Below, one piece after another: positions 2,713 to 22,716 of a DNA stretch of 22,716 nt (positions are counted from its first letter, which is position 1; each line of letters begins with the position of its first letter). Source of the stretch: a virus; the IMG/VR virus record IMGVR_UViG_3300010155_000105, positions 1 through 22,716 of that record, one strand, 5' to 3'. Both the position numbers and the translations under genes were made by a program. The notes below the pieces were generated by a model. It did no database searches. It was not told the DNA's origin and saw only the letters and a program-made list of their open reading frames with translations.

Positions 2713-2922
2713 ATGGCAGATACAAGAAATATTAACTTGTTAAATAATGGAGAATTTACATCAAGAGATGTGACTTCTTCTAATGTTGGAGAGCTTAGAA
2801 ATGAGCTTGAGATACCAACTGATGCTAATGTAAATGTTGGCGGTACTATTAGACAAAACGATTTCGCTTTGGAAGATGGTGCTTATGTAGCATATACAAG
2901 CAATGATAAAGTTGGTGGATAA
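2713..2922 (+). CDS. Ubiquitin-like beta-grasp protein with C-terminal Gly-Gly
   Basis: A 69-residue protein. The order is strand (RNINLLNN), strand (EFTSRDV), helix (NVGELRNELEIP, 24-35), strand (ANVNVGG), then FALEDGAYVAYTSND and a final KVGG. This is the MoaD/ThiS/ubiquitin-like layout, where 'vgeLR..L.ip.da.v.V.G' and 'L.DGD.V....' are family hallmarks. It ends exactly in Gly-Gly, so no proteolytic maturation is needed before activation. The genes that follow encode E2-like, JAMM and E1-like proteins, exactly the partners expected. Likely role: a modifier adenylated by the E1-like protein and joined to a protein target. Target unknown; conjugation (rather than sulfur transfer) is inferred from the presence of an E2. 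A 120-base gap containing a folded element separates it from the E2 gene. Confidence 0.82.
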   Translation: MADTRNINLLNNGEFTSRDVTSSNVGELRNELEIPTDANVNVGGTIRQNDFALEDGAYVAYTSNDKVGG

Positions 2923-2933
2923 TCATTAATCAT

Positions 2934-3023
2934 TAAATAAAAACGAGGTTCAAGAGATATACTTGAGATGGTGGTGCGGAGTATAGGTAACCAGGAGAAT
3001 GTCCTGCGTGTAGTTTTTATTTA
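2934..3023 (+). other. Folded element between Ubl and E2 genes
   Basis: TAAATAAAAAC (2934-2944) pairs perfectly over 11 bases with GTTTTTATTTA (3013-3023). Inside are TCAAG/CTTGA (2950-2954, 2962-2966) and CAGGA/TCCTG small hairpins. It starts 11 bases after the Ubl stop and ends 19 bases before the E2 start codon. A processing or stability element that separates Ubl expression from the enzymes is a reasonable reading. It is not a standard terminator. Confidence 0.6.
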
Positions 3024-3042
3024 GTATAAATTAGGAGATATT

Positions 3043-4506
3043 ATGGAATATTTCAATGGAATAAGAGAGGTTGATGTCTCTGATATTGATTGTTTAAAGA
3101 ATATGACACAAGAGACAGCAAATGCAATAGCAACAGGTCCACAAGACGCTTTCTTTACATTATTAGATAGATTTAATGATGATTTAAATTATTATATAAA
3201 TGATACAATAGATGTTACAGACAAATGGAACTGGAAACCAGGAACATATGATAAAATAGATAAAATGATACTAAAAAAACTCAATTTTAGTAAAAAATCA
3301 AATGGCATCTATAATAAAATTAGTAAAATAAGAGAAAGAAGTAATTATTTAAACTATGTGATGAGAAATGCTCAAGAACTAGAAATTCAAAAGTATAGAT
3401 TAAAGCAATCTGGTTTAAGTAAGAATGTTAATATTGCTGATTTTCAAGACAAAGCTAATAAATTAGTAGATACAATAAATACACAATGCAGTTTAGTAAA
3501 TGATTTAACTGAAGGCAAAGTAATTATTACATCTTATATTAGCGATAATTTTGATAATAGATTAACACCAATATATTTAGATATTAAAATGTATGGATTA
3601 ACATTATCTATTCATTCTGGTGATTCATCAATACAGGATATAAGGTTACAACCTATTCATTTAATAATGAAATATCCATTTAGACATTATATTAACAATC
3701 TAAGCACAAGCTGGAAAATTGTTGGAGAATACGGAGAAAATGATGTTAATATCAGATTTCCATATATATCAACATCTTATAGAGAGTATGACAATAGTTT
3801 TGGAACTGTATGTTTAGATAAATATAATGATGATATTAAAAAATCATTTATGAAATTAGACTATATTCAAATGGCTATGCATTTAATGAATTGGGCTCAA
3901 TATTATCATATAAATCATTCTAATCCTTATAATAACCTAAAGTTTCTTCATTATGGATTACCAAAAGGATATTCTAAAGAATATAGAAGTACTTTATCTA
4001 GCATTGAATCTGACTGTGCATCTAGAATAGCTCGTATATACCGTCCAGACGATTCTATCACTTATTATAATGAGTTAGAAGATAATACTTCTATTTGTAA
4101 TGGTATTGAATGTCAATTAAAGAGTAGTTGTAATGCATTTTCAGACAAAGATATTATTATGAATCATATTTCAAATCAATCAGATGAACATTGTCAAATT
4201 GAATCAATGATAGGACATATAGTTGAATATATTAATTCAATAGAAGAACGTAATAAAAGTTTTATCGCAGAAGAATCAGTTTATTATCTTGGTTGTGATT
4301 TTGGTGAACCATTTATTGAATTTCTATTTAGATGTATATATCAATGGTGTACTCCATTTAAAGGCGATGAAAGTATAAAAGCTTTTTATAAGCAACTTGT
4401 TCGTTATTATCATTATGAAACAAATGGTGTTGAAATTGAAAGAAATGAAGATGAAATTAAACAAGAAATGTTAGCATGGGCTACAAACCCAGAAAGGATG
4501 GGATAA
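3043..4506 (+). CDS. Large E2-like (ubiquitin-conjugating fold) protein
   Basis: A 487-residue protein with TTAGGAG seven bases before ATG. Residues ~1-150 are helical. Residues ~160-305 look like an E2/UBC fold: beta-strands, then FPYIS (239-243), FGTVCLDKYNDD (253-264) with candidate catalytic Cys257, a helix (LDYIQMAMHLMNWAQYY) and SNPYNN (293-298). This matches the 'HPhi...G.iCLd...........sPYn' order of E2s, including prokaryotic ones. Residues 305-487 form a C-terminal extension with several cysteines (352, 357, 363, 384, 418, 431, 436) that might bind metal or act in transfer; this is speculation. Typical E2s are ~150 residues, so this is unusually long. Its stop is one base from the JAMM gene start. 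No E3 is visible; the flanking domains might select targets. Confidence 0.72.
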   Translation: MEYFNGIREVDVSDIDCLKNMTQETANAIATGPQDAFFTLLDRFNDDLNYYINDTIDVTDKWNWKPGTYDKIDKMILKKLNFSKKSNGIYNKISKIRERSNYLNYVMRNAQELEIQKYRLKQSGLSKNVNIADFQDKANKLVDTINTQCSLVNDLTEGKVIITSYISDNFDNRLTPIYLDIKMYGLTLSIHSGDSSIQDIRLQPIHLIMKYPFRHYINNLSTSWKIVGEYGENDVNIRFPYISTSYREYDNSFGTVCLDKYNDDIKKSFMKLDYIQMAMHLMNWAQYYHINHSNPYNNLKFLHYGLPKGYSKEYRSTLSSIESDCASRIARIYRPDDSITYYNELEDNTSICNGIECQLKSSCNAFSDKDIIMNHISNQSDEHCQIESMIGHIVEYINSIEERNKSFIAEESVYYLGCDFGEPFIEFLFRCIYQWCTPFKGDESIKAFYKQLVRYYHYETNGVEIERNEDEIKQEMLAWATNPERMG

Positions 4507-4507
4507 A

Positions 4508-5401
4508 ATGGAACTAGATAAACTATTTTATATACCAGAGAAAGACTGGTATGAGCTTCAAGGATGGGCTACAATAGCTTATGATGAAGACAAGAATGAA
4601 ATATCAGGACTGATGACAGCAATACCTCAAAAAGATGGTAGATATAAACTCTGTGATGTAGAAATCCTTAAACAGGAGAATACAGGGTCAAATACCACAT
4701 TAGATGGTGATGCTGTAGCTGCGTATAAGATGAAATATGCTATGAAATACCAAAATAAAAGTATGAAATATGTTTGGTGGCATTCTCATCATACTATGGA
4801 TGCGTTTTGGTCAGGAACTGATACAAATGAGATTGATGAATGGAAAAATAGTAGTTTTTCATTAGCTTTAGTAATTAATCTTAAACAAGAGTATAAATTC
4901 AGAGTAAGTATTTGGAATGCTTGTGGATTACCTGTAGAACAACACTATGATATTCCTTTAACTGTAGAGAGAAAGAATGGTGTAAAGGTTACAGATAAGA
5001 TGAAAACTCTTTATGAAGAACTTTGTGATAGTCCTACTTATGGTGGTAATATAAGGCAAACTGGATTTAATTACAATAATCATCTTGTTAGAACTAATAA
5101 TGCTCATTTGGAAATGGAAAATGCTTTCACTGAAACTGTTGAGAAATTAGATAATCTAAATGATAGCTTTATGGAAGCAGGGCTCAATGTTAAGCAATGG
5201 CAATCAGCAATTAATGATATGAATAAGATTCTTAAAGAAAAGAAATTTCCATTTAGCATTAAAGAACCAAAAGGCTCTAAACAAGAGATTATTAATAAAT
5301 TAATGGTTACTATATCAGGAGATATGATTAAGTGGGAAGATGAAGCTATAAAGAATCAAGTAGAACAAAGTTATATCTGGGGAGGTACATATGGATATTA
5401 A
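4508..5401 (+). CDS. JAMM/JAB-family metallopeptidase
   Basis: A 297-residue protein. The JAMM motif is complete: Glu31 (NEISGLM), then WHSHHTMDAFWSGTD giving His92, His94, Ser102 and Asp105 in exact H-x-H-x7-S-x2-D spacing. Members are zinc isopeptidases or peptidases that trim Ubl precursors or remove Ubls from targets. Because the neighbouring Ubl already ends in Gly-Gly, deconjugation or quality control is the likelier role here. Residues ~165-297 are a helical extension (EMENAFTETVEKLDNLNDSF) that is not part of the minimal JAB fold and may bind the E1 or E2. It starts one base after the E2 stop and overlaps the E1 gene by 11 bases, so the three are translated as a unit. Confidence 0.9.
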   Translation: MELDKLFYIPEKDWYELQGWATIAYDEDKNEISGLMTAIPQKDGRYKLCDVEILKQENTGSNTTLDGDAVAAYKMKYAMKYQNKSMKYVWWHSHHTMDAFWSGTDTNEIDEWKNSSFSLALVINLKQEYKFRVSIWNACGLPVEQHYDIPLTVERKNGVKVTDKMKTLYEELCDSPTYGGNIRQTGFNYNNHLVRTNNAHLEMENAFTETVEKLDNLNDSFMEAGLNVKQWQSAINDMNKILKEKKFPFSIKEPKGSKQEIINKLMVTISGDMIKWEDEAIKNQVEQSYIWGGTYGY

Positions 5402-6053
5402 TAGTCGTTCAGCAGGAATTATTGACTGTTTAACTGATTATACATTTCATATACTTGGATGTGGGGCTATTGGTAGCTCTGCATCCACTCAACTTGCTAG
5501 AATGGGAGCTGATAAATTTGTATTATATGATAATGATATAGTTGAATCAGCAAATGTAGGAGTATCACAATATACATTATATGATGTAGGTCATGCTAAA
5601 GTACATTCTTTAGAAACTAAACTTAAAGATATTAATGACCTTACAGAAATAGTATGTGAAGATGGATTGTTTAAAGAGTTATTATATAAAGGAAACAATC
5701 AAGATATAGTTATTATAGGATTTGACAATATGAAATCAAGACTAGATGCTGTATCTGAATGTTCTAAATATAAACTTAAATTGTTAATTGATGGTAGAAT
5801 GGGTGCTGAACATTACCAACAGTATACATTTGCTAAACCTAATTACAATGATTACATTAAAACTTGGTATGCGGATAAAGATGGAAGTAGTGAACCTTGC
5901 AATATGAAAGCTACAAGTTATTGTTCAAACATGTCAGGGAGTTTTATAGCAAATACCATTCGTAAAGTGTTGACTCGTCAACCTTATGAAGTCGCTTTGT
6001 CATTTAATTTTCCCACTATGACAGTAGAGAAAAATACTTGTTATAAAGCTTGA
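5391..6053 (+). CDS. E1/ThiF-like adenylating enzyme
   Basis: A 220-residue Rossmann-type protein. ILGCGAIGSSAS (21-32) is the nucleotide-binding loop and YDNDIVESANVGVSQ (46-60) the acidic D-x-D region. Lys70, and FDNMKSR (111-117) carry the remaining family positions. Candidate catalytic cysteines are Cys170 (SSEPCNMKATSY) and Cys178. It is shorter than ThiF/MoeB (~250). The usual 'N..RQ' arginine finger is replaced by NVGVSQ, which is odd and may mean an arginine is supplied in trans by a partner. It starts inside the JAMM gene (11-base overlap), has GGAG about nine bases upstream and ends in TGA. Role: adenylation and thioester capture of the Ubl ending at 2922. Activity is inference from motifs and neighbourhood. 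Confidence 0.87.
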   Translation: MDINSRSAGIIDCLTDYTFHILGCGAIGSSASTQLARMGADKFVLYDNDIVESANVGVSQYTLYDVGHAKVHSLETKLKDINDLTEIVCEDGLFKELLYKGNNQDIVIIGFDNMKSRLDAVSECSKYKLKLLIDGRMGAEHYQQYTFAKPNYNDYIKTWYADKDGSSEPCNMKATSYCSNMSGSFIANTIRKVLTRQPYEVALSFNFPTMTVEKNTCYKA

Positions 6054-6156: not shown

Positions 6157-6843
6157 ATGGCTTTGAAAAAAGTTAAAAGAAAAATTGTTTCTGAAAATCC
6201 TAAAAGTTTGTTATTATATGGAGCTCCTAAAGTAGGTAAAACATCTATTTTAAGTAAATTGGATGGTTGTCTAATTATAGATACCGAACAAGGAGCTAAT
6301 ATGATAGAAGGATATATAGAAACAGTAAATAACAGAGAAGAGTTAATAAAACTTCTAGAAAATGCTCAAAAAGGACATGATTATAAATATGTCGCTATAG
6401 ATACAATAGACAGAATAGCAGATTGGGCTGAAAAAGCAGTTTGTGAAGCCGAAGGTGTTACAAATGTAGCAGATTTAGCATTTGGTAAGGGCTTTGGTAT
6501 GGTAAGAGAAAAAGTGCTAAATACAGTATCTATAGTTAAAGAAATATTTCCTCATGTTATTATTATTGGACATAGGAAATGGGCTAAAGCAATAGTAGAA
6601 ACTAAAGCTATAGTAGAGCCAGAAAGCTTGAATTTAACAGGTAAGTTAAAGAATATGTTAATGGCAGATTGTGATGCTATAGGATATGTGTATAGAGATG
6701 AAGATAAAGGTAAATTAATGGTAACCTTTAAATCAAACGATGCACTAGAAGCAGGTAGTAGAAGTCCTCATTTGGCAGGCAAAGAAATGGAATTTAAATG
6801 GAATCTTATATATAAGGAGAAGAAAAGAAATGGCCATATTTAG
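6157..6843 (+). CDS. Sak4-like RecA-fold ATPase (AAA_24 type)
   Basis: A 228-residue protein with Walker A GAPKVGKT (22-29), an IIDTEQGA segment after it (40-47), Walker B YVAIDTID (78-85), and FPHVIIIGHRK (131-141) as the sensor strand. This is the arrangement of phage Sak4/AAA_24 recombinases, which with a phage ssDNA-binding protein promote strand annealing and recombination-linked replication. Length fits the family. AAGGAG precedes the ATG. It stops at TAG 14 bases inside the next gene, which encodes a likely ssDNA-binding partner. Confidence 0.87.
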   Translation: MALKKVKRKIVSENPKSLLLYGAPKVGKTSILSKLDGCLIIDTEQGANMIEGYIETVNNREELIKLLENAQKGHDYKYVAIDTIDRIADWAEKAVCEAEGVTNVADLAFGKGFGMVREKVLNTVSIVKEIFPHVIIIGHRKWAKAIVETKAIVEPESLNLTGKLKNMLMADCDAIGYVYRDEDKGKLMVTFKSNDALEAGSRSPHLAGKEMEFKWNLIYKEKKRNGHI

Positions 6844-7432
6844 ACCAGAAATGAACAGTGGAAGCAGTAGCTTCTATGGAGTATGTGAAATAGCAATTAA
6901 AGGATTTAAAGATAGAAGTTCTGAATTTGATTGGGCTGATATATTTATTGATGTAATTGTTAATCAAAAAGGTAGTGAATACACTAGGAATATTAAAGTA
7001 GCAGGTTCAGTAGAAAAGGATACAGATGGTAATATTACTGGTGGTAGTGTACTTAAAAGAATGTATGTTTTCTTTGATGCTATTGGATGTAAAGCAGGAT
7101 TAAATATTAAGGGTGAATGGGAAGATGAAAAAGGCGAAAAGATTAAAGATATTGGTAAATATTTAGAAGATAATTTCGTAGATGTTACATTTCCTGATAG
7201 TGGAATAAATTATAATTTCATTGCTTATGTTTATAAAGAAAAGCCAAAGAAAGAAGGCGATAAAGCCTGGACAAGAGTATATCATAAAATATATTCAAAT
7301 AATAAAGCTAATGTTGAAAAATTACTCAAAGATGTTACTTGGTTAAAAGGTAGAGGAGTAATTAAAGAAGCTACTGATATACCTGCTAATAGTGGGAATT
7401 CATTACAAGGAAGTGGATTGTCTAATTTATAA
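6830..7432 (+). CDS. Probable single-stranded DNA-binding protein
   Basis: A 200-residue protein, overlapping the Sak4-like gene by 14 bases and the primase-helicase gene by one (TAATG). It is beta-rich in the first 150 residues (YGVCEIAIKGFKDRSSEFDW, ADIFIDVIVN) and has a flexible, Ser/Asn-rich C-terminus (NSGNSLQGSGLSNL). Position between Sak4 and the primase-helicase is where phages place their SSB. The fold is not provable by eye and the tail lacks the classic acidic SSB end. An alternative is a Sak4-associated protein of unknown function. Confidence 0.55.
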   Translation: MAIFRPEMNSGSSSFYGVCEIAIKGFKDRSSEFDWADIFIDVIVNQKGSEYTRNIKVAGSVEKDTDGNITGGSVLKRMYVFFDAIGCKAGLNIKGEWEDEKGEKIKDIGKYLEDNFVDVTFPDSGINYNFIAYVYKEKPKKEGDKAWTRVYHKIYSNNKANVEKLLKDVTWLKGRGVIKEATDIPANSGNSLQGSGLSNL

Positions 7433-9195
7433 TGTTTGTTGAGATTGCACGAGGGACTCCAGCTAATAGAGGTATGTTGATACCATATAATATGATAAAT
7501 AACTATATGGAGCCGACACAAGCTTTATATCGTTCAGTATATCTCTATGGGCAGGACGCTAAAGATTATGTTGATAAAACAGATTCTCTAAAGAATTTCT
7601 TTGGCATTAGAAGTATAGATAAAATCCCTGTAGATATTGATAAAGGTGATAATTCAAATGAAAAAACTCTTGATATATTAAGGAGTATTATGCTAGAGCT
7701 AGAAGAAGCAGGGATTGGTTGTGGAAGCTTCCAACCTTACTTCTCTGGTTCTGGATATCATTTGATGTTATCAGGAGAATTATTCAATTTCAAAGCAAGT
7801 CCTGATTTACCTTATATAGTCAAACAAACCATGAATAAACTTATGCCTGATATAGATTTAAGTATTTATATGAGAACAGGTATATATAGAGTACAGCATA
7901 CTCCTAATCAGAAAACTGGGCTATTTAAAATTCCATTGACTCGTGAAGAAACATTTTCGTTAAATCCAAGTCAAATATTTGAATTAGCCAAAGAACAAAG
8001 ATTCGATTTTAAATATCATGATTTAGAAGCTAATAGTGAATTAGAAGATAGGGTTATAACAGAAGTACCTGATATTAGAGTATTTAATAAAATATCAGAA
8101 CCAACAACATTAATTCCTTGTGTACAGTCTATGTTAAATAAAGGACCACAGCAAGGGAAAAGACATATAACAGCTATGAGAATTGCAAGTCATTTTAAAA
8201 GACACGGCATTCCAAGTCATTATGCTAAATTATCAATGCTATATTGGAATAATAAAAGTATGAATGAAACATCTGTTAATGAACTAGTAGAAAATGTATA
8301 TAATAGAAATTATAGATATGGATGCCAAGATAAAATAATGCTTGAACATTGTAAAACTCAATGTATTTATTTTAGAAGAAAGGATTATTTTGTTAATGTT
8401 AAAAATGCCTCGGAAATGCAACAAGAGCTAAAAGATAGACTAACTACTGATTTTACAGGAAAGACTATTAATTTAGGGAAAATGTTAGGTGTAGATAAAG
8501 AATCTATTATATATCCAGGTGAATTAGTTACAATATTTGGACCAACAGGTTCTAATAAAACTACATTTGCTCAGAATATAGCATTAGGTGTTGATTTTGT
8601 CAATAATTGCATAGTAAAAGAATGGCAAATACCAACATTATTCTTAAGTTTAGAGTTATCTTCTTGGTATGTGCATAGAAGACATCTTCAAATAGTTTCT
8701 GGAAAATCAAAGGAAGAAGTAAATCACAACTATGATGAGTTATATAAACATCATAAAAATGAATTAGAACATTTAGTTGTGCAGACGATTAGCCCTACAG
8801 TAGAGGGTATTTCAGATAAAGTTAGAGAAATACAACCATCATTGGTAGTCGTAGACTATATAGATTTAGTAGATACTCCACCTCATGTGAGGGGAGAATA
8901 TGAAAAAATAAAATATATAAGTCATGGATTATCTAATTTGGCTGTGAATAATGATTTAATCATTATACAAGTATCGCAAGTATCTAGAGAATATAGTAGA
9001 AACGAAGTCTTAGACCTGTATGCAGGTAAGGGTTCTGGTGCAATAGAAAATGCTTCAAGAAAAGTGATTGGACTTAATGGACAATCTAGTAGTAAGATAA
9101 GAACATTGAAATTATTCAAAAACACCGATGGAGAACTCTTTGATACAACTGTTGAATGGACACCTAACTTTAGAATGAGGAGAAGTTATGAATAA
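7432..9195 (+). CDS. AEP primase - DnaB-type helicase fusion
   Basis: A 587-residue replication protein. The N-terminal half looks like an archaeo-eukaryotic primase: VDIDKGD (67-73) as the metal-binding D-x-D, SGSGYHLM (105-112) as the s-x-H motif, and YRVQHTPNQKTGLFKI (152-167). Cys230, Cys298, Cys307 and Cys311 are spaced like the Fe-S ligands of primase large-subunit-type modules. The C-terminal half is a RecA/DnaB helicase: GPTGSNKT (370-377), LSLELS (405-410), LVVVDYIDLV (471-480) and IIIQVSQVSRE (509-519). The glycine before the Walker A lysine is Asn, an unusual change. Expected roles are primer synthesis and fork unwinding. It follows the SSB candidate with a TAATG overlap. Confidence 0.85.
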   Translation: MFVEIARGTPANRGMLIPYNMINNYMEPTQALYRSVYLYGQDAKDYVDKTDSLKNFFGIRSIDKIPVDIDKGDNSNEKTLDILRSIMLELEEAGIGCGSFQPYFSGSGYHLMLSGELFNFKASPDLPYIVKQTMNKLMPDIDLSIYMRTGIYRVQHTPNQKTGLFKIPLTREETFSLNPSQIFELAKEQRFDFKYHDLEANSELEDRVITEVPDIRVFNKISEPTTLIPCVQSMLNKGPQQGKRHITAMRIASHFKRHGIPSHYAKLSMLYWNNKSMNETSVNELVENVYNRNYRYGCQDKIMLEHCKTQCIYFRRKDYFVNVKNASEMQQELKDRLTTDFTGKTINLGKMLGVDKESIIYPGELVTIFGPTGSNKTTFAQNIALGVDFVNNCIVKEWQIPTLFLSLELSSWYVHRRHLQIVSGKSKEEVNHNYDELYKHHKNELEHLVVQTISPTVEGISDKVREIQPSLVVVDYIDLVDTPPHVRGEYEKIKYISHGLSNLAVNNDLIIIQVSQVSREYSRNEVLDLYAGKGSGAIENASRKVIGLNGQSSSKIRTLKLFKNTDGELFDTTVEWTPNFRMRRSYE

Positions 9196-9388
9196 AATTA
9201 TAAAAATAATCGTTATTGATGATGCCTATTTATTATACCTATTTAATCATATTTTAATAGGAATGATAAATAAAAGAGATGAAGGAATAGCAAAAGGAAT
9301 AGTTATAGGAATATGGAGATTCCAATTTCAAATAACTCTTGGATATTCTGATAAATTACATAGAATAAGTGAAGTTGGGCAAGCTTAA
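9188..9388 (+). CDS. Small protein of unknown function
   Basis: 66 residues, starting 8 bases before the primase-helicase stop and ending in a TAATG overlap with the HNH gene. AGGAGAAGTT precedes the start. The N-terminal half is hydrophobic (IIKIIVIDDAYLLYLFNHIL) and the rest has alternating charged and aromatic residues. No family recognised. The two-sided overlap supports expression as part of the replication operon. Confidence 0.6.
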   Translation: MNKIIKIIVIDDAYLLYLFNHILIGMINKRDEGIAKGIVIGIWRFQFQITLGYSDKLHRISEVGQA

Positions 9389-9876
9389 TGAAAAATAAGA
9401 TAAAAAATAGTTCTAGGGGACGAAAGTCCCCTAGTAATATAACTCGCTGGGAAAAGATATTTAAAAGAAAATTGAAGAGATTTCATAAACATTTTGCTAA
9501 AAAGACTTTTCATAGATTAATGAAAAAATCTTCAACATTAAGGTCAACATTAAAAAGAAGGAGTAGAGAATATGAAGTGGAATTTGACATATCATTGGAA
9601 GAAGTTCGTGAATTATTATATAGATTTTATGGACATACCTGTAATTATTGCGATGCGCGTTTGTTGGTTAACAATATGGTATGCGACCATATCCTTCCTT
9701 TGTCTATGGGGGGTAGTTCAGTTCCTAAGAATCTTCAAATGATATGTATGAGATGTAATACAAGAAAAGGACCTTTAACTAATAAGAATTTTAAAAGAAT
9801 ACTTAAATGGCTTTCGCATCAAGATGAAGAATTAAGAAAATATGTTTTAAAGAAAATGGCTAGTAAAGATTTCTAA
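9388..9876 (+). CDS. HNH endonuclease with two Cys pairs
   Basis: A 162-residue basic protein. The first 65 residues are Lys/Arg-rich. The HNH core follows: CNYC (85-88), CDHILPLSMGG (99-109) with Asp100-His101, KNLQMICMRCNTRKG (114-128) with Cys120, Cys123 and Asn115. This is the McrA-like zinc HNH layout. It lies at the end of the replication operon, where such genes often sit as mobile elements or packaging/recombination nucleases. A perfect 9-bp hairpin with a GAAA loop (9413-9434) lies inside codons ~9-16. TAATG overlaps occur at both ends. Confidence 0.88.
   Translation: MKNKIKNSSRGRKSPSNITRWEKIFKRKLKRFHKHFAKKTFHRLMKKSSTLRSTLKRRSREYEVEFDISLEEVRELLYRFYGHTCNYCDARLLVNNMVCDHILPLSMGGSSVPKNLQMICMRCNTRKGPLTNKNFKRILKWLSHQDEELRKYVLKKMASKDF
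9413..9434 (+). promoter_or_regulatory. GAAA-capped hairpin inside the HNH gene start
   Basis: CTAGGGGAC and GTCCCCTAG form a perfect 9-bp, G-C-rich stem closed by a GAAA tetraloop, in a region that is otherwise strongly AT-rich. It begins 25 bases after the HNH start codon. It would be very stable in the transcript and may slow translation or transcription of the nuclease, or mark an RNase cleavage site. Confidence 0.6.
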
Positions 9877-13257: not shown

Positions 13258-13496
13258 TAATATTTAACTCCTACTCCAGGAAGTTTATATCTTTCACCCT
13301 TTTCTATAGCTTCTTTCTTTTTTCTTCTCTGTCTTGCCAAATCTTGAACAGGTAAGCCAGCAACTTTTTCTATAACTCTTGTAGGATTATGAATTAAACC
13401 TTGGTCTGGTTGAGCAATATCTCTTATCATTCTACCAAAAGGAAATAAAGTCCAAGCAGTATATTCGCTAAATTTACTATAATCATCATCAATCTA
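13257..13496 (-). other. In-frame extension of the giant gene past TAG
   Basis: After the TAG at 13494-13496 the same frame stays open for 78 codons to TAA (13257-13259). The product begins IDDDYSKFSEYTAWTLFPFG, continues RMIRDIAQPDQGLIHNPTRV and ends in a basic tail. It is clearly protein-like: 'YT.WT.FPFGR..RDi' and 'NP.RviEK.aGLP' resemble the C-terminal ends of large phage virion proteins and read on naturally from the upstream residues. No ribosome binding site or early start codon exists for independent translation (the first Met is at 13430 without a site). Its TAA overlaps the next ATG. Options: a nonsense mutation, a sequencing error, or readthrough/suppression. Confidence 0.7.
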
Positions 13497-16400
13497 TTGT
13501 CTTAAAGCTGATACAGGGAATCTAGCAATAGGAGGAGTGATTACTTGTAATGGAGCTATTTTACTAGGATACATACCAAAGAAAGCCTTATCTCTTTCTT
13601 TTTCATCTCCAAATAACCATTCTGAAGTATCTTGAAACCAATTCCATGGAGATGGTAAAGCATTGTCAAATAAACTAAAGGTAAACATATTAGCAAGTGC
13701 TAATACAAATAAATCAATTTCCATAGTTCTTTTATATCTTTGGAATGCTTCAGAACCTGGTTTAAAACCATATAATTTTGCTCCTCTCATGATATCATTA
13801 CGAAAACGGGCACTATTCCAAGCGAAAAGCTGAAACCTAGACATAACCTTACCTAAAGCAGTTCTTGCGAAGAAAGGCCTAAATGGAGCCTCATATAGGA
13901 ATTGTGTAGCTTTTACACCTTTTTTACCCATTTCTATTAAAAATGGATGGTCAGGGTTTCTTATAGCTCCTCCATACCTTTCCCAAGCCCTAATATAATG
14001 AGCCATAAAAGCATCTCTTCTAAGCATTCTTTCTGGAACAGACATAAATTTAGATGCTAATCGTGTAACTTCTTCACCTAAATTATATTTCTTGCCTAAT
14101 GAACGAATCTCTTTTCTTGCAATAGGGTCATTAGAATTAATCTTTTCAGATAATTCTCCAACAAAATCTTGTATATTTTTCTTACTTACTTCTCTTCCTA
14201 ACCCTAATTCATGGACAAGAAACTCTGGAACAACACCTTTACTAATAACAAATTTTTCTACATCTTTCATAGAAGTCCAATTATGATTAATTCTTTGTAA
14301 ATATTTAATATTTCTTGCTTTTCTTAAAGCAGTTAATCCTGCTGACTGAATAGTATGTAAACTACCTCCCCATATATTAGTAATAGATGATTTTGGATGA
14401 GCGAGTAATGATGCTAATTCCCATTTAGCCTCTAGATTTGACCAAGCTCTTATATCTTGGTAAGTAAAATCTTTTAATTCCTCTGGCAACTCACCTTCCC
14501 TAATGCCTAATTTTTTTCTTATTTTATTAACTCTATCTAATACTTTATTATCAGCAAACCAAGCATAAGGAGTTCCTTTTATTTTCATTTTTGGGTCATT
14601 ATAAATTTCCTCTGGAATAATATCAGGTTGTCCCATAGCTCCTTGAACATATAATTTAAAAAATTTATCCCATCTTTTAGCAAGTTCTGGTCCAAATTTC
14701 TTAGACATTCTATGATAAGATTTGTCAAGTACATCTCTTGACATTATTTGTGTTAACTGTCTATAATAAGTTTGAGTTAGATTTCTTGTATATGCATTAA
14801 GCACATTTATATCAGTAGCCCAACCAGCAATATGTCCTTTCCTAGAAAACATAGAACCAAATTTTTGGTTCATATTTGTCCATTTAATATCAGTTTTTTC
14901 TTTCTCTTTCTGTTTTTTCTTAATATCAGCTATATCTTTATAAGCTTGTTCCATATCAAGAACATCAATTCTATCCCAATCTTGCATATCTTGAAATTCC
15001 CAATCACCAGTTAAAGTTTTATGTCTAACAGTTATATTAGCTATTTGCTTTTTTTTCTGTTCTTCAGTTAAATCAGGTCTTTGTCTTATATATTCGATAG
15101 CTTTTTGCATAGACCTTTCAGCTTGTGACCTACTAAAAAACATATGAGGCCAATAAGCTTCAGGATTCCTTTGTCCAGTTTTACCAATATGCATTGCTTC
15201 AAAATCTTCTTTATATTTTCCCTTACTTAAATCAGCCATCATTGAACGAGCCATGTGTCTCATACCATCAATGCCAAGTTGTACAGGAATATCCTGACCT
15301 TTTTCAAGAGCATTACCCATATCTTTGACAAATTTTCTCCAATTCATTTTAGGTTGAGTCTGTTCTACACCATCATAATAAATACCAGTTCCATATTTGT
15401 CTTTCTCTATATATTCATCACGCATGGATTTGTCTCCAACTATCAATTTATGATATTCTTCAAACTTTTTAGTCAATTTATCTCTAATGCCTATTAGATT
15501 ATTTTTCTTACTTCCAAAAACTATTTCTTGCCCACTAACAGTAACTCTCTCACCAGCATCATTAGTTAAAGTAAACTTTTGTTTTCTAAGTTTTTCCCAA
15601 TTATGCTTTTTCGCTGCCTCTCTATAAGAAGTATCATAATTTTTTTTCCACATATCTTTTATAGGTTGAAGTTCATCAGTTTTATCAATAGATTCTTTTT
15701 CGCCTTTTTCTCTTCCTCTAACAGCAATATCGAATAACGCTTCTCCTTCTTTTAATTCTCTAATATTAAGAAAATCAGCTTCAGTTTTAGAAGCTAATTC
15801 TTCTGCTTTAGCAGTAGCAAGACTACCTGATTTATGTACCCAATTTTGTAAAATTTCTAAAAAATAAGTGGGTCTTCTAATTGGACGAGCTTTAGCAGTA
15901 CCATCCTTAGTTAAAAAATAACCTTCTTCCTTTAACCATTTTATATCATAAGCCATTAATTCTCTATTAACAGATTCTGGAAACATCCACCAATACCTTC
16001 TCTTAATTTCAGGTGCACCTTTTTTACCAAACATTTTCTGAAACATAGTACCACTTTCAACTTCTTCTAAAAATTCATTAACTAATATAAAATCTTGTCT
16101 ATTCATTGTATTTAAATCTTTAGCTCTACCAGTAGCTTCAAACATTATACCACCTAAAACTTCATTAAGATTATTACCAAGTTTATTGTTATGTTTCTTT
16201 AAATTAGAAGCCAAACGAACCATCAATTCTTTATCTTTTTGAGTTATATCTGCCTTTTTAATACCAGCATATGCTTCTCCTCTTAAAACACCTTCAACCA
16301 TATCATCAACTTCAGAAACTTCTCCTATATTATTTTCTTTAGCTGCTTTATTAACATTTTCAATTTCTTTATTAATATCTTTAGAACTAGGTACTTTCCA

Positions 16401-19400
16401 AGTATCTACAAGAGCATCATTCATCATTTCAAAATGGTCTCTCATAGCTTTAGAAGAAACAGCTTGAGAATTAAAGCCAACTCTACTTAATCTAGTATCT
16501 GCAGATTCATTAATTGCTTGAGTGATAACATCTAATACAGCAGGATTATATATTTTTAGATTTATTTTACTTAATAAATTTTGTAATTCTTGAACTTTAC
16601 CTCTTTTTAAACTACCTATTAAAAGATGGTCAAATAATTCTTTTTCAGAATCATTCTTTAAACCCCTTTTAAAAATTATAATCTCATCATCAATTTTCTT
16701 TTGGTCCCAAGAAGCAGACCTTTTATCCCCAAGTAATTCTTTCTGTTTGGGAATTTGTCCTTTTTCTTTAGCAATATAATCATCAACATAATCAAATGCT
16801 TTTTGTAAATCTTGTTCTTCCTCAGTTCCTAAATAAGCATCATATTTAACTTTTCTTCTTTCTTTGACATTTAAGTAACTTCTTGTCTTAATTTGTTCAA
16901 CTTTTCGAGTAATATAATCAATTCTAGTACCAGTTAATTCCCCAGTTCCCTTAGTTCTATCTAGTATTCTTTTAATATTTAAAATTGTAGATATATCTGC
17001 CAAATCATTAGATAGAAAATCTTCAGCTTGTCTAGCCAATAAACTTAAATGAGATAATCTTTTCTTCTCATTAAAGAACCAAGTATCTGGTTTAATATAT
17101 TTTTTACCACTTTTTGTAGTTGTAATACTATTATTTATATCTTTCATAACCTCTTTAGCCCATATAGTTCCTCTAATAGCATCAAGATAATTTATTAGTC
17201 CTCTAGTAGAAGTATCAGCAGCAAGCCTTCTTCTTACATCTCTATCAAATAATTTATTTTTAACTATTACATCTATATGGTTATTATAAGGCACTTTAAA
17301 TGAACTTCTATCCATATGCTTTCTTAACCAATTAAATTTAACACCAGTTATTTTATTAATTTCATCATAATAATCTTTAATACGCACTCTATCAACTCTA
17401 TTAAATATACTATCAGACCAATCTAATCCTTCTAATGTACTTACCATTTTTGGTAGCATAGTATTTATTTGCTTAGGGTCTAAATTAGCAATAGAAGAAG
17501 CTAGTTCATTAACTTCATCCATAGTAAATCTTCTACCTTCAGCATAGTTTCTACCAAAATAAGCACTATTCATATTTTTAAATGTTTCAACTAATCCTTT
17601 TTTTAATTGCCAATTTTTTAATTTAGATTCAGCACCTTTAGGAGCATTTTCAAATCTTTTTGTTTTTGGATTGTAAACTTCTACTTTTGATATATTAAAA
17701 TAAGCATCATGTAAACTTTTAAAAAAGAAATTAGAATCTTTCAATCCAACTTCATCTAATGGGTCAGATGCAAAAGCTATTTGAGCTCTTGTTAAATCCC
17801 TTTGTCTTTTTCTCTCACTATCTGATTCTTTAGGCGTTCTTGTAACTCTATAAGTTTTTTTAGAAAATTTATCATAAAAATTATATCTATCAATTTTACC
17901 ATCAGCTTCCATTAGAGCACTATATGAAGACTTTAAAACTTGTGCATTAGATACTGCAACACCAAGTCTATTTCTACCATCAACAGCTCCTTCAGATGCT
18001 TTTATCCTAGAATAAGGAGAAAAATATAAGGCTTTACTTGTCTTTAAAGGATTATCTTTTCCTGCACCTAATGTTAATTCATCTCTAAATGCATCTTTAT
18101 TATTTTGAACATCCCTTTTAGAACCTTTTCCTTCATAAAATTCTTCTTTTTGTGCGTGTATAGCTTCTTTCCAAGATTTTTTCATACCATAGCCTTTGCC
18201 ACTTTCTGCTCTACCACCAAAATAGACAAATGCTTCATCACCATCTAAATCAGCACCACCTAAAGCTCTCATAGTTCTTGCATGCATCATGATACCATGT
18301 CCTTCTCTATCAGTAAATCCTTTAAAAGTTAATCTATGAGCACCAGAAATACTATCCATAGGAACACGAAGAACAACAGCATCAAATACTTCTTGTGCTA
18401 TATCTTTATATTCAGCTGAATCTTTTAATCTCCATAATTTACCTAAAGGAATATGTTTATCATTAGGTAATTTAATTAAAGTATCTTTATATGCATTATC
18501 TAAATAGAAAATAGTATCATTTGTATTTAAATCTTTAAAATCTTCTTGCATCCATTTATCATAAGGTCTTATTCTAGCAACGGCAGAATTATCTACACTT
18601 GGCCTTGTAGTTGATTTGACAAAATAATTATGTAATACTGCAGCTTTATAATCTCTAAGATACTTATGCATATATCCAGAATATGCAGCCTTACCTTCCA
18701 TTGCTGCTTTTTCTCCTACAAATGCAACTTGTTTTAGCATATTATCAATAGGAGATATTGCTTGTTTCATATCACTTAATGTATTAGCTCTTTCTGCAGC
18801 AGTAATTTCACCTTCTTGAAATTGCATTTCAATATCTTTTTCTATAATTCTAATCATTTTTTGCATAGCTCTTTCAGCAAATAATTCAGCTCCAGGAGTT
18901 TTTAATGCTTTAATAAGGTCTGTTGTTCCTAAATTTTCTAAATTTTCTACCAAATCATCTACTACATTTCTATCAAGAGTCTTTAAATAATTATCTAGTT
19001 TAGTATTATATGTATCATTACCCTTAAATGATTTTTGTATAATCTCTTGATGTATATCACTAATGATAGATTTGTCTATTGTTTCATAACCATATTGATG
19101 AAGATTAGTAAATAATTGCTTTACCCATATTTGCTTTTGTAACATATGAGGAGTATTTGTTACAGATGTAGTATACTTAATACTACCAGGATTTAGGTTG
19201 TAAATAGGTGTTTTTCCTATATCTAAACCACCTGTAGTTTCAGTTAAAGGTTTAAATGTATCTGTTGCTTCATCATATACTTGCTTATTAAATGCAGCCC
19301 ATTCTATTTTAGACCTTACTGGGTCAAAGTAATCCTTAGTTTTACCTGTACGTGCATTTACTGTCATAAATGCACCCCCTCTTCTTGTAATCATTTTCGA

Positions 19401-22400
19401 AGTACCTACTCTAGGGTCAGTAGGATTAGGATTATCTACATAATCTTCCCATTCTCTTTCTATAGCTCTAGAAGATTTAATAATTTTCTGTATATACTTA
19501 TTTACTGTATAATCTCCTGCTGTTCTAGTGCCATATTGCTTAGCAGAAGAAGTCATCACCATCATATGAAGACCTTTTCTTGCCATTTCCTTACTAGCTT
19601 GTTTACCAGCAGTATGCATCATATATTTACCAAGTAATGCTCCATGTTCAGAATTTGGGTCTATAATAAATGATTTATTTTGTCCTGATACAGGATGAGC
19701 AGCATCTTCATTAATAACCCTAATAATGTCATCTCTTACTATAATAGCTCCATCAACATGTTCAGGTAAATCTACGTTTTTAGCTAATAAGCTAGATAAT
19801 TTACTCTTTTTAGGGTCCTTGATGAGAACATAATTAAAATCTCCATTATTTAAATCATTAATAGCCTTGTTTTCTTTTTGCAATTCAGTTAATCTATTAG
19901 AAATAAAGTTTTTATCACCACTATATCCACCCATTAACCATATTTGTGCTCTTTTATTATAAGCTATAGCATTAGCAATAAAACCTTCACCTGGCTCATC
20001 AGGATTATGCTTCATAATCTTTTCTATATTTTCAGGAGTATTTTTCAAACCATTTAAAGATAATTCATATAATACATTTGAATGTAACATTTTATCAAAT
20101 GCTTCACTAGAAATACCTAATTCTCTTCTAGCTGCATCTTTATCGTTTGCAAGTAATGAAGAATAATTTTTATCAACTTTTTTTAATTCTTTTCGTACTT
20201 TAGTTATATAAGTTCCAATTTTAGTTTTAGATGAGCTTTGAGTTTTTGGATGGAATTTGACAAATACCAACCTTCCTTTATCCCCTTGCCCTCCAAGAGC
20301 ATACATATTATGCTCATTATACATTCTATTAATGATATCTTTTTTAACACTTATTACCTTAGCTTCAGCTTCTTTTTTAGACAATTCTTCAGTATGTCTA
20401 TAATATTCAAATAATCTATCTAAAGGAACATCTACAGGTAGTCCATTCTTCTTTTTTCCTGTAACAGTATCAAATATAACTAAAGGAGTTCTAAATTCCT
20501 TTCCACCATATGTTCCTCCTTCAGCTCTAAATATATCTTCAATTAATTTAGGAGATTCTATTTGCCTTAAAGGATTGCCTGCTAAGCTAACAGGATTATC
20601 TGGATGAGTAATTTGTAATAATGAGTTGCCATAGCTCCTAACATATGTAACATTTTGACCTAAATTTTCAACAGTAAGCCATCTCCTAACTTGTTGCTTT
20701 GCAATATCAGATAATTTGCCAAATTCTTTTTCCATATCTTTAATTGCTTCTAAAGATTTGACATCTTTATCACCCTTTTTAATATATTTTCTAATAATGT
20801 CTTCTGTTATTCTTCCTAATTCTAATATTTTATTCCTTCTATTACTAGAATCTTTCCATATATCTTTTAAATTCTCAGTAGCAAATCTTTCTGATTTTTG
20901 CATTAAAGGGAAATCATCAGCTTTCATTCCAGTATCTACAACATCAGAAGATTCGACAATTTCACCAGTAATTTCATCAATATATCCAGTAGGACCTAAC
21001 TCTTTTAAAACTTTTATTTCCCCTCTAAGACTTTCTATTTCTTTTTGCTCTTCCTTTATTATAGCTTCTAAATCTTTTAACCTAATTTTATCAACTTTTC
21101 CTTCATTAATAACTTCTTGCATATCTAAAATATTTTTCTCTTTAGTATCAATTTCTGCTGCTTTTCTTTTTTGTGCTTGTAAATTCTTTTGACCATATTT
21201 TTTAACTGGAGTAGGGACAGTTCTCACTTCTTTAGGTTGTTCTGGAGCTTCGCCAAATGTTTCTCTTGCAACACTTTTAATAGCTTCTTTACCAGCTTTT
21301 GTAATTCTATTATAAGTTTTTCCTTTATATTTATGAGGAATAGGACCTAGTAATGCGGGATTTCTTGTCAATTTAGGTACTATATTTTCACCCATTGGGG
21401 TAAATCTATTAGCATTATGGTTCCATTCATACCATCTTTGTTGTTTTTTAGATTGGTCAAAGACATATATTTTATCTAATCCTTTATCTATAGCCATTTG
21501 AATACCCCAACCTGGAGCTCCCTTAACACTTCTACCATTTAAATGTGCATCTTTACCAGTTCTACCAGTATCTATTTCTCCAATGGCAAATACACTACCA
21601 GCTTTCTCTATTTGCCAAGCATTTTTTAAGATTCCTTCATAACTTTGAGGAATAAGTTTACTAATATCTCTATTTAAAATTTCATTAGCTTTATCTACTA
21701 CAAAAGCCTTATCATATAATTCATCTATAGTTAAATCTCTTTGTATTGAAGTTGTAGGTATTTTACCTGCTTTGTATCTTTTTTCATAATCATAAATTTT
21801 ATCGGGAGTAAGATATTGTATAACGGGTACACCATATTTATCCATTACTCTAGCCCATTCAGTTTCAACTTCAGGAGAACCTCCAGAAGTAGCTACATTA
21901 ATATCTTCGTGAGCCTTAGTTTTTGTTCTTCTTTGACGACCTTTTCTAACTGCATGTAAAACTCTATATCCAACATCTTCAATTTTATCTTCAGGTATTT
22001 GGTCTAATATACCCAATAGTTTCATTTCATAATATGCCATACCCTTATTATATGCTTCTTCAGGATACATTTTTCTCCATAATTTAGTAGCTTCATCTCT
22101 AACTATTTCAGGCTCTTTTTCCCATCCTTCAATTAATTCAGGGTCTCTTTCTATATCTAATTTAATATCTTTTTGTTTTTTATCTGTACCAGTAGCTTGT
22201 TCTACTCCTCTTTGTACTACTTTATGAGCACGAGCTCTAGACCAAGGCATTTCCTTGCCACCAAAATAAGCACCAAGCAAGTATTCATATACTTGCTCTG
22301 GAGTAGTAGCTCCTCTAGCAGTAGAAGGCATTCCCATAAATATAGAACCAGATAATGCTCTTAAAGCCTTATCTCCTGCTTTAGTTCCTGGGATTATATT

Positions 22401-22716
22401 ACCTATACCTCTAAATACACCACCTGCAACTGCTCCTCCTGCAAAACTATGCATCATTTCATCTACACCACCCCATATAGAGGATATAGAACTAGCAACT
22501 CCTAAATGAAATGCTCCTTCTGCCATATGTTTAGCTTTTTCTCCAAGCATAAATTTACTAGCAGTATCTACAGCTTTAAATCTACTTCCTGTACTAGATT
22601 TAAGAGCAGGTCTAATTACAGATTCTTTAGCATGCTTTGTAACCCAATCAGCTCCTCTCATTGGAATAGATTTTAATCCACCAATTGCCCTAGAAGCCTC
22701 AAGTAGTCTTTTAGAT
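13494..22716 (-). CDS. Giant polyvalent virion protein with RNA polymerase-like core (5' partial)
   Basis: The frame is open to the window end, 18 codons beyond the ATG at 22661, so the N-terminus is missing; numbering here is from that Met (3,055 residues). Residues ~45-115 are Gly/Ala-rich and hydrophobic. Residues ~355-415 form a Rossmann-like segment (GWGIQMAIDKG, then IYVFDQ to 403). Residues ~487-553 are a coiled coil. QNKSFI and LLGKYMMH (Lys1012) mark a possible first polymerase barrel. GGADLDGDEAF carries D-L-D-G-D at 1471-1475; the stretch before it (VVLRVP, EGHGIMMH) lines up with the NADFDGD context of cellular beta-prime, where the aspartates bind catalytic Mg. The C-terminal ~300 residues (IWGGSLHTIQSAG, RPFFARTALGKVMSRF, a hydrophobic stretch 2984-2999) look like ejected virion proteins. 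Likely injected with DNA to transcribe early genes. Polymerase activity is inferred from local motifs. Confidence 0.78.
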   Translation of the reverse strand, partial: SKRLLEASRAIGGLKSIPMRGADWVTKHAKESVIRPALKSSTGSRFKAVDTASKFMLGEKAKHMAEGAFHLGVASSISSIWGGVDEMMHSFAGGAVAGGVFRGIGNIIPGTKAGDKALRALSGSIFMGMPSTARGATTPEQVYEYLLGAYFGGKEMPWSRARAHKVVQRGVEQATGTDKKQKDIKLDIERDPELIEGWEKEPEIVRDEATKLWRKMYPEEAYNKGMAYYEMKLLGILDQIPEDKIEDVGYRVLHAVRKGRQRRTKTKAHEDINVATSGGSPEVETEWARVMDKYGVPVIQYLTPDKIYDYEKRYKAGKIPTTSIQRDLTIDELYDKAFVVDKANEILNRDISKLIPQSYEGILKNAWQIEKAGSVFAIGEIDTGRTGKDAHLNGRSVKGAPGWGIQMAIDKGLDKIYVFDQSKKQQRWYEWNHNANRFTPMGENIVPKLTRNPALLGPIPHKYKGKTYNRITKAGKEAIKSVARETFGEAPEQPKEVRTVPTPVKKYGQKNLQAQKRKAAEIDTKEKNILDMQEVINEGKVDKIRLKDLEAIIKEEQKEIESLRGEIKVLKELGPTGYIDEITGEIVESSDVVDTGMKADDFPLMQKSERFATENLKDIWKDSSNRRNKILELGRITEDIIRKYIKKGDKDVKSLEAIKDMEKEFGKLSDIAKQQVRRWLTVENLGQNVTYVRSYGNSLLQITHPDNPVSLAGNPLRQIESPKLIEDIFRAEGGTYGGKEFRTPLVIFDTVTGKKKNGLPVDVPLDRLFEYYRHTEELSKKEAEAKVISVKKDIINRMYNEHNMYALGGQGDKGRLVFVKFHPKTQSSSKTKIGTYITKVRKELKKVDKNYSSLLANDKDAARRELGISSEAFDKMLHSNVLYELSLNGLKNTPENIEKIMKHNPDEPGEGFIANAIAYNKRAQIWLMGGYSGDKNFISNRLTELQKENKAINDLNNGDFNYVLIKDPKKSKLSSLLAKNVDLPEHVDGAIIVRDDIIRVINEDAAHPVSGQNKSFIIDPNSEHGALLGKYMMHTAGKQASKEMARKGLHMMVMTSSAKQYGTRTAGDYTVNKYIQKIIKSSRAIEREWEDYVDNPNPTDPRVGTSKMITRRGGAFMTVNARTGKTKDYFDPVRSKIEWAAFNKQVYDEATDTFKPLTETTGGLDIGKTPIYNLNPGSIKYTTSVTNTPHMLQKQIWVKQLFTNLHQYGYETIDKSIISDIHQEIIQKSFKGNDTYNTKLDNYLKTLDRNVVDDLVENLENLGTTDLIKALKTPGAELFAERAMQKMIRIIEKDIEMQFQEGEITAAERANTLSDMKQAISPIDNMLKQVAFVGEKAAMEGKAAYSGYMHKYLRDYKAAVLHNYFVKSTTRPSVDNSAVARIRPYDKWMQEDFKDLNTNDTIFYLDNAYKDTLIKLPNDKHIPLGKLWRLKDSAEYKDIAQEVFDAVVLRVPMDSISGAHRLTFKGFTDREGHGIMMHARTMRALGGADLDGDEAFVYFGGRAESGKGYGMKKSWKEAIHAQKEEFYEGKGSKRDVQNNKDAFRDELTLGAGKDNPLKTSKALYFSPYSRIKASEGAVDGRNRLGVAVSNAQVLKSSYSALMEADGKIDRYNFYDKFSKKTYRVTRTPKESDSERKRQRDLTRAQIAFASDPLDEVGLKDSNFFFKSLHDAYFNISKVEVYNPKTKRFENAPKGAESKLKNWQLKKGLVETFKNMNSAYFGRNYAEGRRFTMDEVNELASSIANLDPKQINTMLPKMVSTLEGLDWSDSIFNRVDRVRIKDYYDEINKITGVKFNWLRKHMDRSSFKVPYNNHIDVIVKNKLFDRDVRRRLAADTSTRGLINYLDAIRGTIWAKEVMKDINNSITTTKSGKKYIKPDTWFFNEKKRLSHLSLLARQAEDFLSNDLADISTILNIKRILDRTKGTGELTGTRIDYITRKVEQIKTRSYLNVKERRKVKYDAYLGTEEEQDLQKAFDYVDDYIAKEKGQIPKQKELLGDKRSASWDQKKIDDEIIIFKRGLKNDSEKELFDHLLIGSLKRGKVQELQNLLSKINLKIYNPAVLDVITQAINESADTRLSRVGFNSQAVSSKAMRDHFEMMNDALVDTWKVPSSKDINKEIENVNKAAKENNIGEVSEVDDMVEGVLRGEAYAGIKKADITQKDKELMVRLASNLKKHNNKLGNNLNEVLGGIMFEATGRAKDLNTMNRQDFILVNEFLEEVESGTMFQKMFGKKGAPEIKRRYWWMFPESVNRELMAYDIKWLKEEGYFLTKDGTAKARPIRRPTYFLEILQNWVHKSGSLATAKAEELASKTEADFLNIRELKEGEALFDIAVRGREKGEKESIDKTDELQPIKDMWKKNYDTSYREAAKKHNWEKLRKQKFTLTNDAGERVTVSGQEIVFGSKKNNLIGIRDKLTKKFEEYHKLIVGDKSMRDEYIEKDKYGTGIYYDGVEQTQPKMNWRKFVKDMGNALEKGQDIPVQLGIDGMRHMARSMMADLSKGKYKEDFEAMHIGKTGQRNPEAYWPHMFFSRSQAERSMQKAIEYIRQRPDLTEEQKKKQIANITVRHKTLTGDWEFQDMQDWDRIDVLDMEQAYKDIADIKKKQKEKEKTDIKWTNMNQKFGSMFSRKGHIAGWATDINVLNAYTRNLTQTYYRQLTQIMSRDVLDKSYHRMSKKFGPELAKRWDKFFKLYVQGAMGQPDIIPEEIYNDPKMKIKGTPYAWFADNKVLDRVNKIRKKLGIREGELPEELKDFTYQDIRAWSNLEAKWELASLLAHPKSSITNIWGGSLHTIQSAGLTALRKARNIKYLQRINHNWTSMKDVEKFVISKGVVPEFLVHELGLGREVSKKNIQDFVGELSEKINSNDPIARKEIRSLGKKYNLGEEVTRLASKFMSVPERMLRRDAFMAHYIRAWERYGGAIRNPDHPFLIEMGKKGVKATQFLYEAPFRPFFARTALGKVMSRFQLFAWNSARFRNDIMRGAKLYGFKPGSEAFQRYKRTMEIDLFVLALANMFTFSLFDNALPSPWNWFQDTSEWLFGDEKERDKAFFGMYPSKIAPLQVITPPIARFPVSALRQ

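Follow-up and report, generated by a model that had tools for sequence, protein, structure and literature searches.

We analysed a 22,716-base virus record from IMG/VR (IMGVR_UViG_3300010155_000105, positions 1 to 22,716; hereafter the window) that carries genes predicted to encode a ubiquitin-like protein (Ubl), an E2-like protein, a JAMM metallopeptidase and a minimal E1/ThiF-type adenylating enzyme (Table 1). A first-pass annotation, made from the letters of the DNA, had described four adjacent same-strand genes of which the last three are translationally coupled. Open reading frames (ORFs) were found for all four, all on the + strand, and by their coordinates the E2 stop and the JAMM start are separated by 1 nucleotide (nt) and the JAMM and E1 genes overlap by 11 nt, in agreement with the coupling.

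Table 1. Features of the cassette and its replication-gene neighbours in the window (aa, amino acids)
Feature	Position	Strand	Details
Ubl	2713..2922	+	69 aa, ends SNDKVGG; beta-grasp, C-terminal Gly-Gly
Hairpin between Ubl and E2	2932..3025	+	arms 2932-2946 and 3011-3025; 17 nt before E2 start
E2-like protein	3043..4506	+	487 aa; candidate catalytic Cys257, codon at 3811-3813
JAMM/MPN+ metallopeptidase	4508..5401	+	297 aa
Minimal E1/ThiF-type adenylating enzyme	5391..6053	+	220 aa
Sak4-like ATPase (context, outside cassette)	6157..6843	+	phrog_124 2e-32; position kept in relatives
Primase/DnaB-like helicase (context)	7432..9195	+	phrog_19 6.3e-28; primase phrog_16345 8.4e-18

Predicted folds and catalytic residues

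The gene at 2713 had been proposed to encode a beta-grasp protein ending exactly in Gly-Gly. AlphaFold2, supplied with 40 sequences, modelled it as a beta-grasp fold (strand-strand-helix-strands; predicted local distance difference test (pLDDT) 83) and not as another fold, and the top Foldseek matches in the PDB included the ThiS-like protein Mth1743, archaeal ubiquitin, variants of ubiquitin, SUMO and ThiS. With K-(V/T/S)-G-G kept in all 54 unique homologues, both parts of the proposal held. Most homologues, the window protein included, end at the Gly-Gly; others run on for 1-11 residues, with tails such as QA, C, IV, SSC, MTYYIKYSK and VTIVRFKVKLK. Loci L005 and L006 are nearly identical at the Ubl and yet differ at the DNA level, one lacking and the other carrying a tail, and L009 is also tailed. 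Such tails would fit the pattern of a modifier matured by the JAMM peptidase. Because the window Ubl is encoded in its mature form, the window JAMM would only deconjugate.

The JAMM protein had been recognized by the spacing of its motif, and this assignment was borne out. The motif reads E31...H92-S-H94-x7-S102-x2-D105, as expected for E...HxHx7SxxD, and E31, H92, H94, S102 and D105 are kept in 71/71 unique homologues. The match to Pfam Prok-JAB (8.4e-5, 22.9 bits) falls slightly below the 25-bit cut-off, and a profile search retrieved Rpn11/PSMD14 (5e-5).

The assignment of the last gene as an E1/ThiF-like enzyme is supported by its match to Pfam ThiF (1.3e-18) and by the nucleotide- and metal-site residues of the adenylation domain: GCGAIGS, D47, D49, N55, K70, D112 and R117 are kept in 80/80 of the best 80 among 325 relatives. 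Cys170 and Cys178 are kept in 78 of these 80. Cys170 is the better thioester candidate of the two, because the E1s of the crAss and Calditrichota groups described below align a cysteine at that position. A profile search retrieved MccB, UBA5, UBA6, Cap2 and BubCD.

Neither the Ubl nor the E2-like protein had a convincing family match in Pfam, PHROGs, PADLOC or NCBIfam, so both were identified by structure, alignment and context. Across 64 unique E2-like sequences only P240, C257, P295 and C357 are near-invariant, and they fall within HPYIS...YGxVCLDxYxDDI...LMxWAQYYNxxxSNPYN. Cys257 is kept in 63 of the 64, the sole exception (L061) being a 284-aa fragment with a score of 34 bits. The active site of ubiquitin-conjugating (UBC) enzymes has the pattern HPN...G-x-I-C-L-D...NP, which the motif HPY...G-x-V-C-L-D...NP of the E2-like protein resembles, with HPY where UBC has HPN. 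A general consensus for E2 enzymes scored best at GTVCLD; 11 of 200 shuffles did equally well, and we did not count this as evidence. In the AlphaFold2 model (pLDDT 84) a long helix leads into several strands, after which come the cysteine and further helices, an order compatible with a UBC core set within helical extensions. When the model was compared with the viral models of BFVD by Foldseek, the matches beyond near relatives included CrAss-like ctDAq1 (2.0e-3), A0A1B0WLX5 (2.5e-3) and a 435-aa protein of the crAss-like phage cr128_1 (8.3e-3). A product of 435 aa is likewise predicted for the E2 slot of the cr128_1 cassette, flanked by the Ubl-like and JAMM genes, so by size the matched protein is probably the one in that slot. 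Together, Cys257, the UBC-like motif, the operon slot and the fold match to this crAss-like protein support the identification as an E2.

Conservation in relatives and likeness to known systems

A search with the E2-like protein retrieved 10 viral contigs carrying the same genes, and profile scans of viral sequences found, besides the E1 relatives counted above, 76 relatives of the JAMM and 15 of the E2. From the loci retrieved by E1, E2 or JAMM we assembled a test set limited to distinct loci in which the E2 is complete and at least 900 nt of upstream sequence are available. The Ubl is present in 45/45 of these, in the same order and on the same strand; since retrieval of this set did not involve the Ubl, its co-occurrence is not a retrieval artefact. 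Among loci retrieved by the Ubl that offered enough room, E2, JAMM and E1 are present in order in 34/34. This survey shows that the four genes are kept together, and the conservation of both residues (the Gly-Gly of the Ubl, Cys257) and gene order excludes a chance origin of the set.

Pairwise ratios of nonsynonymous to synonymous substitution (dN/dS) against the window gene were below 1 for all four genes and lowest for the Ubl (Ubl 0.02-0.16; E1 0.14-0.34; JAMM 0.24-0.38; E2 0.51-0.72); only the ranking is usable, because synonymous sites are near saturation in distant pairs. A slow modifier paired with a fast E2 fits a constant chemistry with changing targets.

The claim that the cassette lies among phage replication genes was confirmed by the Sak4-like ATPase and the primase/DnaB-like helicase downstream (Table 1). 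The relatives show the same arrangement as far as each contig extends: cassette, Sak4-like ATPase, a 200-aa gene and primase/helicase. In a 52-kb relative (G001), genes for the portal (phrog_156) and the major head protein (phrog_1328) lie on the strand opposite to the cassette and the replication genes.

E1 searches of named phages gave matches in Crassvirales (Steigviridae) and in Flavobacterium phages, mostly annotated as thiamine biosynthesis proteins. In the surroundings of five such E1 genes, a beta-grasp-like protein, a protein of 394-444 aa and a JAMM are encoded ahead of the E1, in the order seen in the window, and these cassettes adjoin primase and uracil-DNA glycosylase genes. In hhalign comparisons with the window family, the E1 (99.9% probability, 8e-33) and the JAMM (96.8%, 2.7e-10) aligned; the Ubl alignment was not significant. 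The Ubl-like domain of this group is N-terminal in a protein of 200-290 aa and carries KSG(A/G), unlike the terminal Gly-Gly of the window Ubl, and the motif of the E2-slot protein is HSHV...PC.G. The label "thiamine biosynthesis protein" at L012 and L142-L145 is probably wrong, and these genes more plausibly encode E1-like enzymes of a Ubl cassette. We rejected a thiamine gene as the identity of the E1, given the invariable presence of JAMM and E2 and the failure to find any thiamine or sulfur partner. A literature search for crAss phages with ThiF gave no result.

A scan of genome contigs with the JAMM profile, which works through two peptide patterns and is therefore limited to fairly close relatives, yielded one locus, in a Calditrichota metagenome-assembled genome (MWJR01000211.1, L129). 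This operon matches the window in its four genes and their order. The E2 of this group was found in 10/39 genomes, with the whole set wherever the locus is long enough, and the cassette is bacterial. By hhalign the E1 and JAMM align with the window family (3.4e-25 and 3.6e-15). The Calditrichota Ubl is ThiS-like and ends in VKGG plus 1-3 residues, and the E2 has an HPH...ICWGN motif and a cysteine-rich C-terminal region. The top PDB match of its core was a Ubc enzyme (2onu, E 0.39) with HPN, Cys and N..DP in register, which is suggestive and not significant on its own; searches with UQ_con and Prok-E2_D in this group were weak or without result.

Several known systems were compared with the window cassette. 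The anti-phage operon Bil (BilABCD) encodes Ubl, E2, JAMM and E1 as four genes, where BilA has two Ubl domains, BilD has an inactive and an active adenylation domain plus a Cys domain, and BilB has a CEHH motif (PMC11354881). Bil was ruled out, as the window has a one-domain Ubl of 69 aa, an E1 of 220 aa and no CEHH spacing after Cys257. PRTRC was ruled out by scores far below the cut-offs (PRTRC_A 15.6 against 101.8 bits, PRTRC_ThiF 26 against 144.75). A type II cyclic-oligonucleotide-based anti-phage signalling system (CBASS; Cap2/Cap3) was also rejected: the E1-E2 models of PADLOC matched at the E1 part only, the E1 is a separate gene, and no nucleotidyltransferase was present among the scanned window proteins. 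So was 6A-MBL, for which the score was 41.7 against 320 bits, the genes are separate, and neither a fused cap2_3 nor a metallo-beta-lactamase partner was seen. The known type closest in composition is operon type 6d of Iyer 2006, which, like the PRTRC cassette, has a stand-alone Ubl with C-terminal Gly, an E2-like protein, a JAB and an E1 (PMC1779556); its extra helical gene has no separate counterpart in the window cassette. Ubl and JAB proteins also occur in phages in the tail genes of lambda/T1-type phages (TAPI and TAPK; Iyer 2006). Those, unlike the window cassette, lie in a tail gene cluster with the JAB joined to NlpC/P60, and lack E1 and E2.

Proposed function of the cassette

The first-pass annotation had called the locus an apparently complete phage-borne Ubl-E2-JAMM-E1 cassette, and this core claim stands: we found neither a predicted fold at odds with it nor relatives in which the four genes are separated. 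We consider it probable that the phage owns a complete system for reversible Ubl conjugation, a chemistry suggested by the conserved catalytic residues together with the co-conserved genes. The JAMM would trim tailed Ubls to Gly-Gly, a step that the window Ubl, already encoded mature, would bypass. The minimal E1 would then adenylate the C-terminal glycine and probably form a thioester, with Cys170 as the foremost candidate. The E2-like protein, which has large and variable helical parts, may accept the Ubl on Cys257 and attach it to target proteins; no E3 is visible. Finally, the JAMM would remove the Ubl from its targets.

Several observations weigh against such a system. The proposal of an E2-like protein with candidate Cys257 gained from the conserved cysteine, the UBC-like motif, the slot and the viral-model match; its weak side is that no solved E2 was matched, either by full-chain Foldseek of the model against the PDB or by the E2-like profile against the PDB. 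By hhalign the phage E2 gave no significant alignment with the crAss E2, and with the Calditrichota E2 the motif was in register with poor E-values. The E1 of the window, crAss and Calditrichota groups lacks the usual Arg after the conserved Asn, and the phage E1 lacks an E2-recruiting domain. Neither an E3 nor a substrate was identified, and all of the evidence derives from metagenomic contigs.

Because the cassette adjoins primase/helicase and recombination genes in the window and primase and uracil-DNA glycosylase genes in the crAss-like and Flavobacterium phages, it most likely targets phage replication proteins or host proteins encountered during takeover. The uses first proposed for it were modification of host proteins, protection or maturation of the virion, and interference with a host conjugation defence. 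Its unchanging location next to the replication genes speaks for a role inside the cell, at takeover or during replication, rather than in maturing or assembling the virion, although sequence cannot decide among the proposed uses. We give roughly even odds to the broader proposal that self-sufficient Ubl conjugation and deconjugation forms a core part of the replication module in a large group of P22/podovirus-like phages, with a sister form in crAss-like gut phages, and modifies replication or host proteins.

The cassette might instead serve superinfection exclusion, with Bil-like tagging of structural proteins spoiling the particles of competing phages. The four functions and their order are shared with bacterial operons that include the anti-phage Bil (PMC11354881), and a fast-evolving E2 would suit changing targets. 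However, the set is always present and holds a fixed place by the replication genes in every testable relative, unlike a variable accessory locus, and the phage would need to spare its own virion, which makes this role unlikely. Counter-defence, with the Ubl, E2 or JAMM as a decoy or deconjugase directed at host Bil or CBASS Cap2/Cap3, appears less likely again. A JAMM alone could undo host conjugation, and such defences share the chemistry, but a decoy needs neither trimmable tails nor an E1 and E2 whose catalytic residues are conserved in nearly all members, and the co-conserved complete set indicates that the phage uses it for itself. Least probable is a sulfur-carrier pathway of the ThiS/MoaD or tRNA thiolation type, in which the ThiF-like enzyme would make a Ubl thiocarboxylate after the JAMM exposes Gly-Gly: ThiF/MoeB models give the E1 its best scores, a ThiS-like protein heads the solved folds matched by the Ubl and the crAss E1 is recorded as a thiamine biosynthesis protein, yet the scanned window proteins include no sulfurtransferase or biosynthetic partner, and a conserved-Cys E2-like gene is always present.

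Bacterial Ubl-conjugation operons have been studied as anti-phage defences, and if phages keep a complete set as well, tagging would serve both sides. If reversible conjugation by the phage is confirmed, phages themselves use a chemistry so far familiar chiefly from eukaryotes and from bacterial defence. The open-access papers that we searched describe no phage carrying all four components, with subscription papers and bioRxiv preprints mostly outside that scope. Through the crAss-like link, the idea becomes testable in a cultured phage, Bacteroides phage crAss001, for whose E1 the current annotation is thiamine biosynthesis protein.

Intergenic hairpins and neighbouring genes

A hairpin lies between the Ubl and E2 genes (Table 1), and a comparable stem with a variable interior occurs in most of 38 distinct Ubl-E2 gaps. 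The arms differ in sequence among relatives while pairing is maintained (for example TTAAATGAGAGCC/GGCTCTCATTTAA and TTAAGGGGGAC/GTCCCCCTTAT). The hairpin is missing from loci in which just 1-2 nt separate Ubl and E2 (L022, L036, L043, L062, L071 and L072), and an Rfam search with it gave no family match. The distance between Ubl and E2 is 1-260 nt in most relatives, in contrast to 1025 nt in L117 (2573-3597). A second strong hairpin in the window, with arms at 1819-1833 and 1872-1886, lies upstream of the gene at 1996.

Directly upstream of the Ubl, positions 2372-2710 encode a fast-diverging 112-aa protein with a hydrophobic N-terminus that is also found in several relatives. An HNH/endonuclease VII-like protein (9388-9876; HNH_5 1.1e-11, phrog_1035 2.4e-18) stays 3' of the helicase in relatives. 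On the - strand, an ORF of 3055 aa (13494-22661) was without a match in Pfam, PHROG and PDB searches. Its motif GGADLDGDE is kept in giant ORFs of three relatives (G001, G002 and G004) and resembles the metal-binding motif of multisubunit RNA polymerases.

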